A DNA stretch of 64,000 nucleotides from contig NZ_KI519609.1 in the NCBI RefSeq assembly GCF_000483485.1, positions 2,261,460 to 2,325,459 of the forward strand, in the 5' to 3' direction. The notes below the pieces were generated by a model. It did not search any database. It saw nothing but the letters and a program-made list of their open reading frames with translations, and had not been told where the DNA came from. Made by a program: the position numbers and the translations under genes. The stretch comes from Thiomicrorhabdus chilensis DSM 12352. Lineage in GTDB: Bacteria > Pseudomonadota > Gammaproteobacteria > Thiomicrospirales > Thiomicrospiraceae. This document shows, piece by piece, positions 2,563-16,064 of the stretch (position 1 is the first letter of the stretch; every line of letters begins with the position of its first letter).

Positions 2563-3843
2563 TCAATGATTCTTAAGCGAATAGGCTTCCAAAAATTGAC
2601 CAATCAACTGCAATCTCTGACGTTCAATCGCTTCGGCAATCTCGGCACCTTGATGACCTTGTGCCAGAATCGCACGGTTATCTACTTGAGTCGCAGCCTC
2701 TGCCAAGGCCATCCAAAACTTAGCCTGCGGATAAGCCACCGTTTCAAATCCGGTACGGCCTTTGGCATCCGCTTCGCAGGCCAGCAAAATGCGTTCAAAA
2801 TTTTCCGGTTTCTTCAAAACCTGGCAGGCCTGGATGACTTTCAAATAGGTCTTGGGCTTGAGCGCCGGTTTACCGCCAGAGTCTAATCCCTTATGAATCA
2901 AACCATGCCATTCGGTGACCTTTTCGGCCAGCTGCTGAGTTTTTTTAGGCACACGGTAACGCCGACATAATGCGGCCACCACCGGTACACCTGCGGCTTC
3001 ATGGCCATGATGCTTTGGCCAGAACTCCTCGGGAGTCAAGCCTTTACCCAAATCATGCATTAAAGCGGCAAAACGCACTTCAAGATCGTCACTCAAGCAC
3101 GCGGCGGCATCCAGCACCATCATCGTATGGGTTCCTACATCGCCTTCCGGGTGATGCTTAGGCGGCTGAGTCACCACAAACAGGCGATCCAATTCGGGAA
3201 ACAGAACCTTCAGAGCCCCCACTTCACGCAAAACCATAAAAAACACACTGGGTTTTTGGGTATTCAACGCCTTAACCACCTCCTGCCAGACGCGTTCCGG
3301 CGTTAAGGCGGCCAATTCTCCGCTTTGCACCATATGTTGCATCAAGTCTCGGGTATCGGCATGCAACTTAAAATCAAACGCCTGCAGCTTGGCGGCAAAC
3401 CGCGCCACCCTAAGCACCCTTAAAGGATCTTCCGAAAAAGCCGGGGACACATGGCGCAGAATCCTCTTCTGCAAATCGTCTTGTCCGCCATAGGGGTCAA
3501 TCAAAGCCCCTTGCGGAGTTTGCGCCATGGCATTGATGGTCAAGTCACGGCGTAACAAATCCTCTTCCAGGGTCACATCGGCCGAGGCACTGACCTCAAA
3601 ACCGTGATAGCCGATCCCGGATTTTCGCTCGGTTCGTGCCAGCGCATATTCTTCTTTTGTCTTGGGATGCAGAAACACCGGAAAGTCTTTGCCAACTTGC
3701 TCAAAACCGGCTTGAAGCATCGCCTCGGGTCTAGAACCGACCACCACCCAATCGCGATCATAAACTTCAATGCCCAACAGGGCGTCACGTACCGCCCCCC
3801 CAACAAGATAAGCCTGCCCCTGCACAATTTCACCTTTCATCAT
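2563..3843 (-). CDS. cca: CCA-adding tRNA nucleotidyltransferase (multifunctional, with HD domain)
   Basis: Adds or repairs the 3' CCA end of tRNAs. The class II nucleotidyltransferase head is clear: G-G-A-V-R-D at residues 15-20, the metal-binding D-R-D at 29-31 and [10 protein letters not shown] at 98-107. The C-terminal half has an HD phosphohydrolase domain with the H-T-M-M-V-L-D helix and H-D-L-G-K at 263-267, as in the E. coli enzyme that also has 2',3'-cyclic phosphodiesterase and phosphatase activity. At 426 residues it is close to the usual length. ATG 3843 is preferred because AAAGG lies seven bases upstream; an in-frame TTG at 3846 and ATG at 3840 are alternatives. One CAGGCCTG element lies in the 3' half. 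Confidence 0.95.
2825..2832 (-). repeat. CAGGCCTG element inside cca
   Basis: On the minus strand it reads CAGGCCTGCCAGGTTTTG and encodes I-Q-A-C-Q-V-L-K. Confidence 0.7.
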
Positions 3844-3884
3844 CAAAACGCCTTTTCAATACTTTACTTTATCCCAAGACCAAC

Positions 3885-3915
3885 AAAAAAGCCGTCATTA
3901 AAGACGGCTTTTTTT
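3885..3915 (-). terminator. Terminator of the SDR gene
   Basis: GCCGTC and GACGGC form a stem with a 6-base loop. It is flanked by A-run and T-run, so it could work in both directions. It lies between the SDR gene and cca, both on the minus strand. Confidence 0.8.
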
Positions 3916-3946
3916 AACTTGAGCGTAGCACACCCTAAACGAAACG

Positions 3947-4918
3947 CTACACCAACTCGTCGGCGCTGCGTTTGGCTTCTTTTCGATAAAAGTTATAACG
4001 CTCGCGAATATGATGTGGCGCGGCATAATTGGAAACCACCCACTCTAAACTGCTTGGTGCAAAGCCAAACTGCGTCGCGAAGTCCGTATCCGCGATTAGA
4101 TCCTGTTTCAGCATCATGATTTGCGATTTTGAAATCGAGCGAACCGGCGTCAACACCCCCAAAGCGGCCATGAATTTGGCATTCAAGCTGCACATAGGAA
4201 ATACTACCGCGTCCTTTTGCATCAACTCAACCACCAGCTCACCCAGCTCTTTCAGCGTCAGGCGCTCTTCGCCAACCACTTCAATCTTCTTGCCAAAGGT
4301 ATCGGCCTGCTTGATCGACTGCACCATGGCTTGTGCCAAATCGCGCACCCAAATCGGCTGCACCACGGTGTCACCATGCGCCAGCATCAAAAGGTCAAAA
4401 CGATTCAACTGCTTGACATAGCGCTGAGTGGTATCGTCATGTTCACCAATGATCAAACCCGCCTTGAAAATGGTCACATCGGCACGCGCGATACCATGCA
4501 TCAAGGCATCGGCCTCACCCAATCTGTACAGATATTCATCCGCTTCCTGACTGGCGGTCGCACCAACCTGAGAAAGACTCAATACACGCTGCACTCCAGC
4601 GTGCTCACAGGCCTGCTTGATTTTCTGATTAACTTCAACCAGATCGTCCAGAGCGACCATTTCCGTGCCGTTCAAACGATCGGCGGTCAGATTGATGACA
4701 ATGTCCGCATCCTTGAGGGCCGCTTCCAACTGCGACGTTTCGTCGTAGGAAGTCAGTGAAGCCAGCCGGGTATTGGCAAACAGCGCAAAATCTCGGTAAC
4801 GCTCCGGACGACGCACACAAACCGTCGTTTCATACCCGGCTTTTGACAAAGCATTGACCACTTCACGACCGATATAGCCTGTCCCGCTAAAGACAGTGAC
4901 CTTGTTTCCTAACATCAT
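3947..4918 (-). CDS. Atypical short-chain dehydrogenase, NDUFA9/NmrA-like
   Basis: A 323-residue NAD(P)-binding protein with an N-terminal Rossmann motif G-T-G-Y-I-G at residues 12-17, a basic stretch V-R-R-P-E-R suited to NADP binding, and I-N-L-T near residue 70. It resembles the bacterial proteins grouped with mitochondrial complex I subunit NDUFA9 and NmrA-type SDRs. The classical Y-x-x-x-K catalytic pair is not evident, so a structural, redox-sensing or quinone-related role is as likely as dehydrogenase activity (inference). Adjacent ATGs at 4918 and 4915 are likely starts; a TTG at 4930 is possible. No strong ribosome binding site is visible. Confidence 0.75.
   Translation of the reverse strand: MMLGNKVTVFSGTGYIGREVVNALSKAGYETTVCVRRPERYRDFALFANTRLASLTSYDETSQLEAALKDADIVINLTADRLNGTEMVALDDLVEVNQKIKQACEHAGVQRVLSLSQVGATASQEADEYLYRLGEADALMHGIARADVTIFKAGLIIGEHDDTTQRYVKQLNRFDLLMLAHGDTVVQPIWVRDLAQAMVQSIKQADTFGKKIEVVGEERLTLKELGELVVELMQKDAVVFPMCSLNAKFMAALGVLTPVRSISKSQIMMLKQDLIADTDFATQFGFAPSSLEWVVSNYAAPHHIRERYNFYRKEAKRSADELV
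4608..4615 (+). repeat. CAGGCCTG element inside the SDR gene
   Basis: Core followed by CTTGATTTTC on the plus strand, opposite to the gene. In the gene it encodes K-Q-A-C-E. Confidence 0.7.
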
Positions 4919-5047
4919 GCCCAAATCCAATTCTTTAATTCAAAACCGTACAAGGATAAGTAATCCCCCATTTAAGGTCAAGCTTTTACACTTTGGTTTT
5001 TTGTTACAATACGCGCAAATCATTGCCTTAACATTCACGAGAGACCT

Positions 5048-9090: not shown

Positions 9091-10218
9091 TCAGTTGTCG
9101 TCTTTTTCTTCTGCCGGCAAATGGCGTAAAACGTCATTGAATATTTTACGCGCATTGCCTTTATAGGTCTGTGCATACACAGGACGCCACGCAAACTGGC
9201 TCTGATCAATTTTTAGCGCCTCATCCACCCCTTTGCCTGCACGAATCAATTCAAGCGACTCATCACGCATATACTTCAGATATTCGTATGTATCCTCAGC
9301 CACTTTCGCCATGGTTGACGGGCCGCCGTGTCCCGGAATCACCAACGCATCCTCTCCGGCATAGGCGCGCATCCGTTCAAAGGCTCCCATCCAGTCATGC
9401 GTATTGGTGTATGGGAAAACCGCAATCATCCGATCGGCATACCCCAGATCACCGGTAAACAGCAGTTTTTTCGAAGGCACAAAAGCCACCGTTGATCCTC
9501 GAGTATGCGCTTCGCCAAAATAGCGCAGCTCCACCGTTTCGCCTCCGCCAACATCAATCTCAGCCCGATCTTTAAATGTGGTGTATTTCGCCGTCATATT
9601 CCGTGCCGGTGCATAGAGAGCTTCATCGCCACGCAGCACCCCGCGTTCAACTCCTCTGTCAAACGCCTTATTAAAATCCTTGGTCGCAAATTCCTGCGAA
9701 TAAATATGGCGTACACCCACGTCCCACCAATAACTTGCACCTAAATTGGCGTGTCCCTGGTTATTCTCGATCACCACCCATTTCACAGGCTTATCGGTTA
9801 TACGTTTAATCTGCTTATGGGCGCTGTAGGCTACCACCGGATTCGGTCCGGCGTTATACACCATGATCCCATCCTCGAACTCCACAAAACTGATATTGTT
9901 GTTAAGACCAAAATTCTCTTTGGTGGCCCACATCAAAGCACCGGTAATGGTATAAACACCCTCTGCCGCCTTTTCCAACGGCGGAATCGGCAACTCCGGT
10001 CCAATATAGCCTTCATTCCGGACACGCTGCTGCACTTCCTCGGCGTAAGCGGCCACCGAAGTTAACTGGCTCTCTTTGGCATAATGCTGCATCCCCGCCA
10101 CAAACGGGTCCTGATACCCTTCTGTTTTGGCGGCAACGGCCGTCTGCATCCCTAACAACAAGGCACAAAGCCCACCCAAGCCTCTGCTTAAACCGGTTTT
10201 AATTTTTTTTAATCGCAT
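9091..10218 (-). CDS. Exported metallo-beta-lactamase-fold protein with degenerate metal site
   Basis: A roughly 375-residue periplasmic protein. The N-terminus from M-R-L-K-K-I-K-T is a typical signal peptide ending A-V-A-A. The fold is recognisable from F-G-L-N-N-N-I-S-F-V, G-E-A-H-T-R-G-S-T-V-A-F-V, L-L-F-T-G-D-L-G-Y and V-I-P-G-H-G-G-P. The later ligands (H, D, H) are kept, but the H-x-H-x-D-H motif reads E-N-N-Q-G-H, so three of four ligands of the first motif are lost. It resembles SoxH-like or alkylsulfatase-like exported hydrolases. It may bind one metal or act differently (inference). An ATG at 10245 would add nine mostly acidic residues before the signal peptide; GGAGG favours 10218. 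Confidence 0.7.
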   Translation of the reverse strand: MRLKKIKTGLSRGLGGLCALLLGMQTAVAAKTEGYQDPFVAGMQHYAKESQLTSVAAYAEEVQQRVRNEGYIGPELPIPPLEKAAEGVYTITGALMWATKENFGLNNNISFVEFEDGIMVYNAGPNPVVAYSAHKQIKRITDKPVKWVVIENNQGHANLGASYWWDVGVRHIYSQEFATKDFNKAFDRGVERGVLRGDEALYAPARNMTAKYTTFKDRAEIDVGGGETVELRYFGEAHTRGSTVAFVPSKKLLFTGDLGYADRMIAVFPYTNTHDWMGAFERMRAYAGEDALVIPGHGGPSTMAKVAEDTYEYLKYMRDESLELIRAGKGVDEALKIDQSQFAWRPVYAQTYKGNARKIFNDVLRHLPAEEKDDN

Positions 10219-10285
10219 ACGCAACGCATCCTCCACCCTATCCATTTCTGGCTCTTATTATTGTTATTCAAATGTTAATAAAAAA

Positions 10286-11225: not shown

Positions 11226-12353
11226 ATGAACAGACCACTTTGCGTATTGCTCGCGCCCGACAGCTTTAAAGGTTCGCTCAGCGCCATTGAGTTTTGCGAC
11301 ATTGCCACTCGGGTGATTCAGTCTCACCATCCGCAGGCGCAGGTGATTTCCCGCCCCATGTCGGACGGTGGTGAAGGGTTTGTGGACAGCTTCGTATTTG
11401 CCGGTCTGGCTGAAAAACAGACGTTATGGACATCCAATGCCCTGGGACGCAAAACCAAAGCCCAGTTCGCTTGGCAAGAACATACCAAAACCGCCATGAT
11501 TGAAATGGCGCAGGCCTCAGGCCTGCCCGGGATTCGCCCGGAAGAACGCAACCCTTTACAGACCCACACCTATGGCACCGGACAAATCATTCAGGCGGCG
11601 CTTGAACTGGGCGCCAAAAAAATCGTACTGGGGCTGGGCGGCTCGGCCACCAATGATGGCGGTGCGGGCGCCTTGCAAGCCTTGGGAATCCCGCTTCTCA
11701 ACGCCCAAGGAAAAGAGATCAATTTAGGAGGTCAGGGCTTGCGCAATCTGGCTCAAATCGGTGACATCCCCGCCCACTTGCTGGAGGTGGAATGGCAGCT
11801 GGCGTGCGACGTCACCAACCCGTTACTGGGAGAACATGGAGCGACCGCAGTGTTCGGTCCGCAAAAAGGGGTGACGCCACAGAACTTCGACATATTGGAA
11901 AACGGACTCAAAAACTGGGCGCAGGCCATAACCGCCAAAACCGGAAAGGAAGTAGCCGAAATTCCGGGATCCGGTGCGGCAGGCGGCATGGCAGCGGGAT
12001 TCATTGGCCTGCTTAACGCCCAGGTCAGCCCAGGATTTGAGATTCTGAACCAAACCCTGCAACTGGATACTTTACTCGAAAGCCAATCTATCGACTGGAT
12101 CATAACCGGCGAGGGGCGCATGGATCTGCAAACCCGCTATGGCAAACTGCCAATGCGCATCGCGGAAATGGGACTCAAACACAAGATCCCAACCATCGGG
12201 ATTTGCGGCACTTTACAATGTGCACCCGAAGATTTGCCGGAATTCCAGGCGCTGTTCAGCATCCTCAACGCCCCGATGCACGAAATCGAGGCGTTTCAGC
12301 AAACTCCGCAAATGCTGCACGATACCCTAAGCTCCCTCTTCCGCCTCATCTGA
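11226..12353 (+). CDS. glxK: Glycerate kinase (GlxK/GarK type)
   Basis: Phosphorylates D-glycerate, feeding glycolate/glyoxylate-derived carbon into lower glycolysis. The 375-residue protein has the family signatures: A-P-D-S-F-K-G-S-L-S-A at the N-terminus, the R-P-M-S-D-G-G-E-G motif at about residues 43-51, L-G-L-G-G-S-A-T-N-D-G-G-A-G near 137-150 and I-I-T-G-E-G-R-M-D near 293. Family relatives release 2-phosphoglycerate; I cannot tell the product from sequence. AAGGA precedes the ATG by seven bases. It appears monocistronic, with no other photorespiration gene beside it. Confidence 0.9.
   Translation: MNRPLCVLLAPDSFKGSLSAIEFCDIATRVIQSHHPQAQVISRPMSDGGEGFVDSFVFAGLAEKQTLWTSNALGRKTKAQFAWQEHTKTAMIEMAQASGLPGIRPEERNPLQTHTYGTGQIIQAALELGAKKIVLGLGGSATNDGGAGALQALGIPLLNAQGKEINLGGQGLRNLAQIGDIPAHLLEVEWQLACDVTNPLLGEHGATAVFGPQKGVTPQNFDILENGLKNWAQAITAKTGKEVAEIPGSGAAGGMAAGFIGLLNAQVSPGFEILNQTLQLDTLLESQSIDWIITGEGRMDLQTRYGKLPMRIAEMGLKHKIPTIGICGTLQCAPEDLPEFQALFSILNAPMHEIEAFQQTPQMLHDTLSSLFRLI
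11518..11525. repeat. CAGGCCTG element inside glxK
   Basis: Encodes S-G-L-P. No T-rich tail on either side, so this may be a chance occurrence. Confidence 0.5.
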
Positions 12354-12511: not shown

Positions 12512-12540
12512 CAGTCACAAAGCTGTTATACAAGCTTCAT
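12512..12540 (+). promoter_or_regulatory. Pho-box-like heptamer array
   Basis: Three heptamers at exact 11-bp spacing, CAGTCAC, CTGTTAT and GCTTCAT, are separated by AAAG and ACAA. Against the PhoB half-site CTGTCAT they match at 5, 6 and 4 of 7 positions, and the AT-rich 4-base spacers fit. It lies 66 bases upstream of the btaA-like gene. Confidence 0.45.
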
Positions 12541-12606: not shown

Positions 12607-13899
12607 ATGAGCATCAGCACGGCAACTGCGGAACCGATCAAAACCAAAAACCTGCTCGATTCGGCAGTCAACAACACCTCCATCTTCAGCCGCAAAGGGC
12701 TGCTGGATCGACTGTTCACTACCTGGTTCGACCGCTTGGTTTACCCTCAAATCTGGGAAGATCCGGAGGTGGATATCCAGGCTTTGCAGCTCAATGCCCA
12801 GTCACGCATCTTCACCATCTCTTCCGGCGGCTGCAATGTGCTCAACTACCTGACCGAACATCCGGCCTCCATCACCGTAGTGGATCTCAATGAAGCGCAC
12901 ATCGCTCTGTTGAATCTCAAGCTGGTGGCCATTGAACACCTGCCCGACCAAGCCTCTTTTTTCGACTTCTTCGGCAAAGCCAATCTCAAAAAAAATCTGG
13001 ATCGCTACCACGCCTACATCAAACCCAACCTGGATCAGAAAACGCAGGATTACTGGGAAGGGAAAACCAGCCTCTTCGGCAAAAAGCGCATCGAACTGTT
13101 CACCGACGGCTTTTACCGCCACGGTCTGCTTGGGCAATTCATCGGCTTCATCCATTGGATCAGCAAGCGCCTTGGCTATGACATTTCGCAACTGATGCGC
13201 GCCCGCACCTCAGAAGAACAAAGCGCCCTGTTCGAACAGCATGTCGCACCGGTGTTCGACACCCGTCTGGTCAAGTTTCTGTGTCACCGTTCCGTAGTGA
13301 TGTACAGCCTTGGCATTCCACCGGCCCAGTTCGACGAGATGAATCAGGAGTCCAAAGAGGCCAAACTGGGCATGCATAACCTGCTAAAAGAACGCGCCCG
13401 CCACTTGGCATGCGACTTTCCGCTGAAAAACAACTATTTTGCCTGGCAGGCTTTCAACCGCGAATACGATCTGACTCATCGTCAGGCGATTCCGCGCTAT
13501 CTGCAAAAAAATCAATTTGAAACCCTGCAACAAGAACGCAGCAAGGTTCATGTCCATCACCTTTCCATGACCGAGCGCCTTAAACAGATGCCGGCACACA
13601 GCCTCAACGCCTACCTGTTTCTGGATGCACAGGATTGGATGAATGAAACCCAACTGCACGAACTTTGGCAAGAGGTTAACCGCACGGCCATGCCGGGCGC
13701 ACGCGTAGTCTTCAGGACCGCCGGAACCCAGTCACCACTTGAACAGAAGCTCTCCCCGGATTTACTACGCCACTGGCAGAGCGATGCCGAAGAGAATCAG
13801 CGCTACACCCAACAGGATCGCTCCGGCATCTACGGCGGTGTATTCCTTTACCGTAAAGACAATCAGGAAACCGACCTGAGCCAGACACCCCAGGACTAG
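12607..13899 (+). CDS. btaA: BtaA-like 3-amino-3-carboxypropyl transferase (DUF3419)
   Basis: The family enzyme BtaA moves the 3-amino-3-carboxypropyl group of S-adenosylmethionine to diacylglycerol, making diacylglyceryl-homoserine, the precursor of betaine lipid DGTS. The 430-residue protein has the family N-terminus Y-P-Q-I-W-E-D-P-E-V-D, a SAM-binding strand-loop I-S-S-G-G-C-N at 71-77 and acidic V-V-D-L-N at 91-95. The C-terminal part includes L-F-L-D-A-Q-D-W-M and a late R-T-A-G. AAGGG precedes the ATG by eight bases. It heads an operon with a GNAT-like gene 10 bases downstream and a PlcP-like gene. No BtaB-type N-methyltransferase is nearby. The family is clear; the lipid product here is inferred. 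Confidence 0.8.
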   Translation: MSISTATAEPIKTKNLLDSAVNNTSIFSRKGLLDRLFTTWFDRLVYPQIWEDPEVDIQALQLNAQSRIFTISSGGCNVLNYLTEHPASITVVDLNEAHIALLNLKLVAIEHLPDQASFFDFFGKANLKKNLDRYHAYIKPNLDQKTQDYWEGKTSLFGKKRIELFTDGFYRHGLLGQFIGFIHWISKRLGYDISQLMRARTSEEQSALFEQHVAPVFDTRLVKFLCHRSVVMYSLGIPPAQFDEMNQESKEAKLGMHNLLKERARHLACDFPLKNNYFAWQAFNREYDLTHRQAIPRYLQKNQFETLQQERSKVHVHHLSMTERLKQMPAHSLNAYLFLDAQDWMNETQLHELWQEVNRTAMPGARVVFRTAGTQSPLEQKLSPDLLRHWQSDAEENQRYTQQDRSGIYGGVFLYRKDNQETDLSQTPQD

Positions 13900-13909
13900 A
13901 GTAAATAGG

Positions 13910-15079
13910 ATGATTGGAACGCCAAGCATGACAATGAAACCACCTGAAATCGCCTGGTCTCGAGCGCACAATTTTGTATTGGGTCTCAATAGCCTGCAAC
14001 AGGGCGATTCAAATGAACAGCCGGTTTACCAGGGCTGCAAGGCAATTCACAACATCAATACCGAACTGGAAACGGTGATCATCGACAATCATGCCTTTCC
14101 ACTGACACGCAATGAAACCGACTACGACAACAGCTATGTGTGCTCGCCTTATACCGCCTACATCCGTTACGCTCGTGACGAACTTGGCCTGCTCAAAAGC
14201 CGCAAACTACGCTGGTTGATGAGAGGCGTGATTGTCATGGCGGCAGGCTTGCTCAGGCTTGGAAAAATAAACCAGACGGTGTCGGTCAATAACTGGCTGT
14301 TTTCGACCAACCCCCTGCCCAAATGGCAGGACAAAACCGTTAAAGCGTTAACCCAGAAATTGATCCAGTCCAACCCGCAACACAGTCTCAGCATTCGTTC
14401 CTTGAACTGTGAGACCGATGGTGCCTTGATGCAACATCTGGCCGCCAATGGTTGGATCATGCTACCGGCGCGCCAAGTGTATCTGTTTCTTCCTGATGAA
14501 AAGGGCGAGAATCCACCTTGGTGGAAACGCAACAATGTGCAAAACGATCAACGGCTGTTACGCAAAACGCCGCTAAAACGGGTGGAACCCAATCAACATC
14601 AGGCACAGGACTTTGTCGAAATCGAACGTTGCTTCAACCAGCTGTTCATCGAAAAACATTCCGCCTTCAACCCGCAATTCAGCGCCGAATACTTCAAGTT
14701 CTTGCATCAACAGAAACTGGTCGAATTTTACAGTTATCGTGATGAGACCGGGCGAATCGTCGCCAGTCTGGGGATGTTCACCCAACATGGCGTACTCACC
14801 GCCCCCATTGTCGGTTACGACACCCATCTACCCAAGTCGCTCGGACTCTATCGCTTACTGATGGCCACACTGCTGGAACTGACGCGGGAGCGCAACTTGC
14901 CTTTGAACTTGAGTTCCGGAGCCGGACATTTCAAACGCCAGCGCGGCGGCCAAGCGGTGATTGAATACACCGCCTTGTATGTGCGCCACCTGCCCTGGAA
15001 TCAACGCTGGATACAGAACGGTTTTGCCAAATTGCTCAACCGTTTCGCAGCGGACTTCCTGCAAAAACACGAACTCTAA
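13910..15079 (+). CDS. GNAT-like acyltransferase of unknown substrate
   Basis: A 389-residue protein. The C-terminal half (about 220-375) looks like a GNAT or FemX-like N-acyltransferase: F-V-E-I-E-R-C-F-N-Q-L-F, then a strand pair V-E-F-Y-S-Y-R-D-E-T-G-R-I-V-A-S-L-G-M-F, and L-G-L-Y-R-L-L-M-A-T-L-L-E-L-T near the usual CoA-binding helix. The N-terminal half has a long hydrophobic helix around residues 100-120 (G-V-I-V-M-A-A-G-L-L-R-L), possibly for membrane association. Its place between btaA and plcP suggests a lipid substrate (inference). The start is uncertain: ATG 13910 has only AGAG upstream, with other ATGs at 13928 and 13934. Confidence 0.6.
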   Translation: MIGTPSMTMKPPEIAWSRAHNFVLGLNSLQQGDSNEQPVYQGCKAIHNINTELETVIIDNHAFPLTRNETDYDNSYVCSPYTAYIRYARDELGLLKSRKLRWLMRGVIVMAAGLLRLGKINQTVSVNNWLFSTNPLPKWQDKTVKALTQKLIQSNPQHSLSIRSLNCETDGALMQHLAANGWIMLPARQVYLFLPDEKGENPPWWKRNNVQNDQRLLRKTPLKRVEPNQHQAQDFVEIERCFNQLFIEKHSAFNPQFSAEYFKFLHQQKLVEFYSYRDETGRIVASLGMFTQHGVLTAPIVGYDTHLPKSLGLYRLLMATLLELTRERNLPLNLSSGAGHFKRQRGGQAVIEYTALYVRHLPWNQRWIQNGFAKLLNRFAADFLQKHEL

Positions 15080-15137
15080 CAAAATGAAATCGACTCTATT
15101 CCACCCGAATTTGAACCTGAAACAAGGCTAAAAAACC

Positions 15138-16064
15138 ATGAACCAAGCACACACCCCTGAATGGATGCAGTTGCAAACAGAAGTGATGTCGGAACTGCAC
15201 AATGCGGGGAGCTCCCCGGCAGACGCCAAAACGGAGAATGAAACTGAACCCCAACATTCAGATTCATCGGTCAATCGCCATTACCGCACCATCTGGATAT
15301 CCGATACACACTTGGGTTCAAAGGGGTGTAAAGCGGACTACCTAAGCGAATTTCTCAAACAACACAACTGCGACACTCTGATTCTGGTCGGCGACATCAT
15401 CGACGGCTGGCGCATGCGCAAGCGTGTCTATTGGCCGCAAGCGCACACCAATGTGATCCGCCGCATCCTCACGCGCGCCAAACGGGGCACCAAAGTCATC
15501 TACATTACCGGCAACCACGACGACATGCTGCGTCGCTATTCGGGCATTCAGTTCGGCAATATCGATCTGGTGGACGAATACTTTCACACCACGGCAGACG
15601 GTCGTAAAATCTGGTGCATCCACGGTGATCAGTTCGACGGTGTGGTGCAATGCCACCGCTGGATCGCCCTGTTCGGCGATTTTCTATATGAAACCGTACT
15701 CCACTTCAACCGCTGGTTCAACCAAGCGCGGCATCGCCTAGGCTTTGGCTATTGGTCGCTTTCGGCCTACCTCAAAGGAAAAGTAAAACGCGCCGTCAAC
15801 TTCATCTCCGACTTTGAAACCGCGGTCGCAAAGGAAGCACACAACCAAGGGATGGACGGTGTGGTGTGCGGACACATCCATCATGCGGAAATCCGTCAGA
15901 TCGGCGAAGACATCACCTATTACAATTGCGGCGACTGGGTCGAATCCTGCACCGCTCTGGTGGAGCACCATGATGGAAAAATCGAACAGATTCACTGGGT
16001 GAAAATCGACCATCAAAACCGTCCGTCTGAAGAAGGTTCCGAACCCGTTCTTCAACCCACTTAA
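15138..16064 (+). CDS. plcP: PlcP-like metallophosphoesterase
   Basis: A 308-residue calcineurin-like phosphoesterase with an extra 48-residue N-terminal segment. All metal-site motifs are present: S-D-T-H at 55-58, G-D-I-I-D at 85-89, G-N-H-D-D at 125-129, H-G-D-Q-F-D at 162-167 and G-H-I-H-H-A at 245-250. Databases often call such proteins UDP-2,3-diacylglucosamine hydrolase. The sequence around S-D-T-H-L-G-x-x-G-C-K-A-D is typical of PlcP, the phospholipase C-type enzyme that turns phospholipids into diacylglycerol under phosphate starvation. The neighbouring btaA-like gene supports this reading. Diacylglycerol released here would be the substrate of BtaA (inference). Confidence 0.75.
   Translation: MNQAHTPEWMQLQTEVMSELHNAGSSPADAKTENETEPQHSDSSVNRHYRTIWISDTHLGSKGCKADYLSEFLKQHNCDTLILVGDIIDGWRMRKRVYWPQAHTNVIRRILTRAKRGTKVIYITGNHDDMLRRYSGIQFGNIDLVDEYFHTTADGRKIWCIHGDQFDGVVQCHRWIALFGDFLYETVLHFNRWFNQARHRLGFGYWSLSAYLKGKVKRAVNFISDFETAVAKEAHNQGMDGVVCGHIHHAEIRQIGEDITYYNCGDWVESCTALVEHHDGKIEQIHWVKIDHQNRPSEEGSEPVLQPT

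Follow-up and report, generated by a model that had tools for sequence, protein, structure and literature searches.

A three-gene operon of Thiomicrorhabdus chilensis that looks like a lipid-remodelling unit and carries a tandem-GNAT gene in the slot of btaB

The stretch of DNA analyzed here, called the window, comprises 64,000 nucleotides of Thiomicrorhabdus chilensis DSM 12352 (contig NZ_KI519609.1, positions 2,261,460 to 2,325,459) and carries a btaA gene, a gene for a tandem-GNAT protein and a plcP-like gene in a row on one strand (Table 1). The source genome is 2.44 Mb in size and 99.99% complete. The intergenic gaps are 10 nt between btaA and the GNAT gene and 58 nt between the GNAT gene and the plcP-like gene, and a further in-frame ATG of the GNAT gene is found at 13928. 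BtaA matched PF11899 (DUF3419) with 352 bits (cut-off 28.2) and the plcP-like protein matched PF00149 with 51.5 bits (cut-off 21.5), while the match of the GNAT protein to PF13480 was weak (25.0 bits) but above the cut-off of 22. Each of the three proteins was conserved at the protein level among related genomes. A first-pass annotation had described a btaA/GNAT/plcP operon at 12607-16064, and the open reading frames (ORFs) and family matches confirmed it. Judged by their gene content, the three genes look like a lipid-remodelling unit.

Table 1. Positions of the operon genes and of the Pho-box-like site in the window
Feature	Position	Strand	Details
btaA, predicted S-adenosylmethionine:diacylglycerol 3-amino-3-carboxypropyltransferase	12607..13899	+	430 aa; PF11899
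tandem-GNAT (Fem/MprF-like) transferase gene in place of btaB	13910..15079	+	389 aa; PF13480, AlphaFold2 model
plcP-like metallophosphoesterase, predicted intracellular phospholipase C	15138..16064	+	308 aa; PF00149
Pho-box-like site, two direct 7-mers 11 nt apart	12512..12529	+	95 nt upstream of btaA start

The window BtaA was 80% identical to BtaA of Thiomicrorhabdus sp. ZW0627 and showed 41 and 44% identity to two rhizobial BtaA proteins, both encoded beside BtaB. The Rhizobium btaA gene directly precedes an annotated methyltransferase gene, which is the canonical btaA-btaB order. The plcP-like protein showed 44% identity to its sole match in a Sinorhizobium meliloti record, which we take to be PlcP, and scored far under the cut-offs of LpxH models (TIGR01854, 26.2 vs 190). 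In the known pathway to diacylglyceryl-trimethylhomoserine (DGTS), which is regulated by PhoB, PlcP releases diacylglycerol, BtaA uses S-adenosylmethionine to form diacylglyceryl-homoserine, and BtaB methylates this product three times, as described in PMC3972451.

The search for BtaB covered the whole 2.44-Mb genome, using a rhizobial BtaB (L026 5209-5883) as query, and gave one match with 25% identity over residues 42-162 and 22 bits. This sole BtaB-like protein is UbiE (418 bits, model cut-off 378), and similar weak matches were obtained in congeners without btaA, e.g. G003, G009, G020 and G025. A btaB gene elsewhere in the source genome was therefore rejected, in agreement with the first-pass annotation, which had read the operon as one without btaB. 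The query itself works, scoring 65-488 bits next to btaA at 46 loci, so it does not explain the absence. Because BtaB was searched for and not found, we regard the operon as a variant, rather than a member, of the betaine-lipid pathway.

Among 58 relatives, the GNAT gene was present in 22 and DUF3419 in 23, and all of the 22 genomes with the GNAT gene have a neighbouring btaA. The one genome with DUF3419 and without the GNAT gene (G037) lies outside the family, and the one of its DUF3419 proteins that was examined (L048) is a divergent type flanked by neither BtaB nor GNAT. L048 and L174-L180 form a divergent gammaproteobacterial DUF3419 subfamily, with neither BtaB nor GNAT adjacent. Nine of the 32 congeners lacking a GNAT match are either incomplete assemblies or complete genomes that are also without btaA. 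A plcP-like gene was found in every one of the 22 genomes with btaA and the GNAT gene (at least 59% identity), lying within about 3 kb of them in 20, with G013 and G024 as exceptions; the phosphoesterase gene also occurs without btaA in several relatives, e.g. G020 and G036.

Two wider samples were examined, in which the tests for a neighbouring BtaB covered about 1.5 kb on either side. In the class sample, DUF3419 was above the cut-off in 29 of 369 genomes, and these loci had BtaB adjacent in 18 cases, GNAT in three (G000, G026 and G094, the last cut by the contig end), neither in eight, which are divergent, and both in none. DUF3419 was detected in 30 of 398 genomes of the phylum sample. Besides G000 and one genome from the earlier count, these comprise 28 new ones, and all 28 new loci had BtaB adjacent and none had GNAT. 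At the 49 non-divergent btaA loci of both samples, BtaB was thus adjacent at 46, GNAT at three and both at none. Elsewhere in the class sample, the GNAT family gave a single weak partial match (G064, 46 bits). The GNAT gene occupies the slot normally held by btaB.

The history of this arrangement was followed in two trees. A maximum-likelihood tree was built from 41 BtaA proteins, leaving out L069 and L078 (GNAT-partnered), L161 (class sample) and all 28 new phylum loci. In it the 21 GNAT-partnered BtaA formed one clade (100/98), provided that the root lies outside it. The 19 BtaB-partnered BtaA were all outside this clade, six of them close and 13 distant, and the window BtaA stands next to BtaB-partnered BtaA. 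For the GNAT tree, 60 sequences were aligned out of the 81 available from 80 loci plus the window, and the 21 BtaA-partnered proteins fell together on the same side of a branch (94/89; recovered in 92% of bootstrap trees). Vogesella oryzae (L098) fell within both the BtaA and the GNAT groups on a long branch, and its placement is unsure. The topologies fit a single partner switch, after which the two genes were inherited or transferred together. The congeners G020 and G026 have flanks that are 94-99% identical, and G020 is without btaA and the GNAT gene but has kept plcP (L218 613-3942 vs L072); a tblastn search of G020 for a remnant of btaA or the GNAT gene found none. In this pair, btaA and the GNAT gene were gained or lost as a unit.

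The Pho-box-like site of the window matches 11 of 14 fixed positions of the consensus used for scoring, which we take to be that of E. coli. The lone site is no proof, because the whole window is at chance level (4 sites at the 11/14 tolerance vs 4.35 expected), and the signal comes from position and conservation. Sites were counted in the window and 19 of the 22 btaA-bearing loci, leaving out L069 (btaA cut), L122 (191 nt upstream) and L078, which is a second copy in the same metagenome-assembled genome (MAG) as L067. A site with at least 11/14 matches was found upstream of btaA in 14 of these 20 loci, while 4 of the 105 control upstream regions taken from these loci had one. Summed over the 20 btaA upstream regions, the best scores reached 219, compared with 172.9 for shuffles preserving base composition only (standard deviation 3.5, maximum 186). 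The four control regions reaching 11/14 included two before plcP homologues located apart from btaA (L073 and L076) and one before the GNAT gene of L067. PhoB is encoded in the genome (334 bits, cut-off 296), and the operon is probably PhoB-controlled, as judged from these sequence signals.

The fold of the GNAT protein was predicted by AlphaFold2 using 60 homologues, with a predicted local distance difference test score of 93.9 and a predicted template modelling score of 0.90. The model is a tandem GNAT, which upholds the earlier assignment of the protein as GNAT-like and places FemX and Sbb17 nearest to it, with MprF near. The top Foldseek matches were the MprF/lysylphosphatidylglycerol (LPG) synthase domain and Sbb17 (E 1.6e-9 to 6.1e-9), while VIA-align ranked FemX first (Z 16.2, 276 residues, root-mean-square deviation (rmsd) 3.9), followed by Sba18/Sbb17 (Z 15.8), and gave Z 14.2 for MprF (250 residues, rmsd 3.8). 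The matches to FemABX, MprF, Sbb17 and Sba18 span most of the protein (Z 12.3-16.2), and the ten best structural matches are all aminoacyl-tRNA users, Sbb17 according to its structure entry title. FemX and MprF use aminoacyl-tRNA, and the acceptor of MprF is a membrane lipid, according to PMC4964394 and PMC8131360. The former also cites FemA as a GNAT fold with a reaction that does not involve acetyl-coenzyme A (acetyl-CoA). When the GNAT family, BtaA and the phosphoesterase were searched by sequence against solved structures, no credible match was obtained.

Residues F341, K342, R345, R315 and E352 are invariant in all 60 GNAT relatives, and FemX requires F304 and K305 (PMC4964394). The P-loop consensus for CoA binding, Q/R-x-x-G-x-G/A (strand 4/helix 3), is complete at its place in none of the 60 sequences, and residue 314, which is Gly or Ala in the consensus, is Tyr in 59 and Asn in one. 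This departure lowers the likelihood of CoA use but does not remove it. A Pfam scan of the GNAT protein at E up to 1 returned PF13480 and a sub-threshold ribosomal match, and no PF02388, PF09924, PF13444 or PF04339. An OlsB-like identity was accordingly rejected for lack of PF13444. The hhalign probabilities against two FemAB_like (PF04339) Caulobacter proteins were 4.1% and 0.7%, and a PF09924 LPG synthase, sought in two genomes as a comparison sequence, was not found in them. A transmembrane anchor was rejected on hydropathy. The best 19-residue value was 1.32 in residues 95-122 and 1.38 anywhere in the protein, and 4 of 60 relatives reached 1.6 in the stretch 95-122. The possible membrane helix proposed in the first-pass annotation is a helix within the modelled fold (residues 98-117). 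Together, the fold and the motifs of the model lean to a Fem/MprF-type transfer.

We propose that, under phosphate shortage, PlcP would cleave phospholipids to diacylglycerol and BtaA would move the 3-amino-3-carboxypropyl group of S-adenosylmethionine onto it, giving diacylglyceryl-homoserine. The tandem-GNAT enzyme would then, instead of a methylation by BtaB, link an aminoacyl or fatty acyl group to the homoserine amine through an amide bond. We regard such a PhoB-controlled lipid-remodelling pathway, branching from the betaine-lipid pathway, as fairly probable. The PlcP and BtaA reactions are inferred from known families. For the GNAT step, the acceptor, amide bond and donor are proposals, drawn from gene position, exclusion and fold. 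If the pathway operates, an aminoacyl-tRNA would be the donor with about an even chance, to which we lean slightly, and the product would be an aminoacyl- or peptidyl-homoserine lipid; a fatty acyl-acyl carrier protein (acyl-ACP) or acyl-CoA as donor, with N-acyl-diacylglyceryl-homoserine as product, has somewhat under an even chance. Since the nearest solved folds are aminoacyl-tRNA transferases, transfer of an amino acid is no less likely than that of a fatty acid. Taken as a claim of its own, that the operon makes aminoacyl- or peptidyl-diacylglyceryl-homoserine by transfer of an amino acid from aminoacyl-tRNA onto the product of BtaA is a tentative suggestion.

Several observations weigh against this proposal. 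The P-loop is partly kept, with Q, R or K at position 309 in 46 of 60 sequences and the first Gly (312) in 54 of 60, and a consensus-like string occurs elsewhere in the C-terminal half in 13 of 60, the window protein included. The correspondence of F341-K342 to residues 303-305 of Weissella FemX was counted from alignment end points only, assuming no gap. VipF, solved with acetyl-CoA, scored level with MprF (Z 14.3, 200 residues, rmsd 6.2), and N-myristoyltransferase also matched the fold (Z 11.9-12.3), so the fold alone does not fix the donor. At L075, a GNAT gene (3827-5029) whose product lies inside the BtaA-partnered side of the GNAT tree has no btaA in the 3.8 kb upstream. A scan of a species-genome collection gave 148 GNAT relatives, of which 80 loci were kept. 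The btaA gene stands beside the GNAT gene in 22 of them, 21 being from Thiomicrorhabdus, Hydrogenovibrio, Thiomicrospira and related gammaproteobacterial MAGs and one from Vogesella, and no btaA was found in the examined flanking DNA of the other 58. These come from Paenibacillus, roseobacters, Mesorhizobium, Ralstonia, Opitutaceae, Chlamydiae and others; six are from one assembly, Ralstonia sp. TCR112, in which the examined DNA covered little of the region upstream of the GNAT gene. Many of the btaA-less loci share a cluster with β-ketoacyl-ACP synthase III (KAS III), an epimerase-type reductase, a metallo-beta-lactamase fold, an adenylation-like protein, an ATP-grasp-like protein and a Rieske protein, so the acceptor of the GNAT family need not be diacylglyceryl-homoserine. 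By this distribution, the family would be a more general tool that one lineage has coupled to BtaA.

The shared cluster extends across several phyla (L085 1-7287, also L088, L106, L108, L118, L120 and L123), and not all members are present everywhere. Its adenylation-like protein is distant, with PF00501 below the cut-off in one case and no match in another, and the label ATP-grasp-like came from sequence inspection, with no Pfam match. A crude acyl carrier protein pattern was applied near the GNAT relatives, and the only credible ORF it picked up (L090 8830-9018) lies some 3.8 kb away from the GNAT gene. In the Creative Commons-licensed literature no description of this cluster was found among the matches listed. 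No function for the family was found either, and the operon offers a first handle on the GNAT relatives of Paenibacillus, roseobacters, rhizobia and others.

The strongest of the competing explanations, itself one branch of the proposal above, is that the GNAT protein transfers a long chain from acyl-ACP or acyl-CoA and forms N-acyl-diacylglyceryl-homoserine, an acidic three-chain lipid; as a separate claim we hold it possible but doubtful. Bacterial ceramide synthase, a Fem-like GNAT (PF04339) that N-acylates a lipid amine, is a precedent for this chemistry. The conservation of the GNAT gene with btaA at the position expected of an amine modifier would suit such an enzyme, and the KAS III and the distant adenylation-like protein beside GNAT relatives elsewhere fit acyl chemistry. 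N-myristoyltransferase, whose tandem fold is matched, is a fatty acyl enzyme with two GNAT domains (PMC4964394). The complete CoA P-loop missing from its place in all 60 sequences, the use of aminoacyl-tRNA by the ten top structural matches, and the lack, at E up to 1, of any match to PF13444 or PF04339 count against fatty acylation, as does an OlsF-like enzyme (described below) that already suggests a route to an N-acyl amino-acid lipid in this genome. The first-pass annotation had proposed fatty N-acylation to an ornithine-lipid-like product. Its lipid-remodelling unit and its GNAT gene in the btaB slot hold, as the two partners never occur together beside btaA in the sampled loci, while its membrane helix does not; its fatty donor and ornithine-lipid-like product are a possibility, with the GNAT protein showing no PF13444 match at E up to 1 and the genome having a separate OlsF-like gene.

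An improbable explanation is that diacylglyceryl-homoserine or DGTS is the end product, with an unrelated methyltransferase at work or none needed, and that the GNAT protein acts elsewhere. Diacylglyceryl-homoserine, being a zwitterion, could serve as the final lipid, non-orthologous methyltransferases are beyond what sequence can exclude, and most GNAT relatives occur without btaA. Against it, the only BtaB-like match of the genome is UbiE, with like weak matches in btaA-less congeners, and the GNAT gene is gained or lost with btaA and sits in the btaB slot. Capping of diacylglyceryl-homoserine with an acetyl or similar short chain by a CoA-dependent GNAT is very unlikely: PF13480 is named an acetyltransferase domain and the fold matches include VipF and MshD (Z 12.9), both solved with acetyl-CoA, but the P-loop consensus is not kept at its structural position in 60 of 60 sequences, though atypical P-loops are known (PMC4964394).

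The proposed pathway shares with the BtaA-BtaB-PlcP (DGTS) pathway of Sinorhizobium and Rhodobacter a BtaA, a PlcP-like enzyme and a Pho-type site, but has the tandem-GNAT protein instead of BtaB. The GNAT protein resembles FemABX, MprF/LPG synthase and Sbb17/Sba18 in its tandem-GNAT fold and in not keeping the full CoA P-loop, and has a Phe-Lys pair that may correspond to that of FemX; unlike FemABX and MprF, it is without PF02388 and PF09924, has no flippase domain and is partnered with BtaA. It resembles bacterial ceramide synthase as a Fem-like GNAT that would acylate a lipid amine, but is without PF04339, and the hhalign comparison with the two PF04339 proteins was weak. OlsB and OlsF (PF13444) are GNAT-fold enzymes that form amides in phosphorus-free aminolipids, according to PMC11631085, and a similar role is predicted here for a protein of another Pfam family whose acceptor, if the model is right, would be a diacylglycerol-based lipid. 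No description of the btaA-GNAT pair or its lipid was found in the Creative Commons-licensed literature among the matches listed, and the accessible text of that 2024 aminolipid review (PMC11631085) contains no occurrence of BtaA or DGTS.

One lineage, mostly the sulfur-oxidising Thiomicrorhabdus, Hydrogenovibrio and relatives together with one Vogesella, has put an enzyme of unrelated fold in the place of the second enzyme and has retained it. If the proposed pathway is true, its product would be a lipid free of phosphorus, which lipid surveys would overlook or assign wrongly, and may be a membrane lipid so far not described. If the donor is an aminoacyl-tRNA, translation-derived amino acids would be joined to the remodelling under phosphate starvation, as an MprF-like route on a phosphorus-free backbone.

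Outside the operon, the source genome encodes an OlsF-like two-domain protein (Acyltransf_2 and PF13444/Acetyltransf_5; L217 990-2723, - strand, C1 ~232589-234322), and PF13444 was present in 26 of the 32 genus genomes searched. By its domains this protein probably represents a separate route to an ornithine-type lipid, which the source genome may make alongside the product of the operon. The glycerate kinase gene at 11226-12353 was not taken as an operon member, given that 253 nt containing the Pho-box-like site separate it from btaA. Scans for promoters and terminators gave results at chance level. In G036, plcP without btaA has two group-4 glycosyltransferases adjacent (L219 345-4117), which possibly represents a glycolipid branch of the same remodelling. 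The MAG of L075 is filed as a Synechococcaceae cyanobacterium and carries a Thiomicrorhabdus-type GNAT; its contig is possibly mis-binned. Within the window, the minus strand at 9091-10245 encodes a protein of metallo-beta-lactamase fold, which is like SoxH-related quinoprotein relay hydrolases and scored below the family cut-offs.

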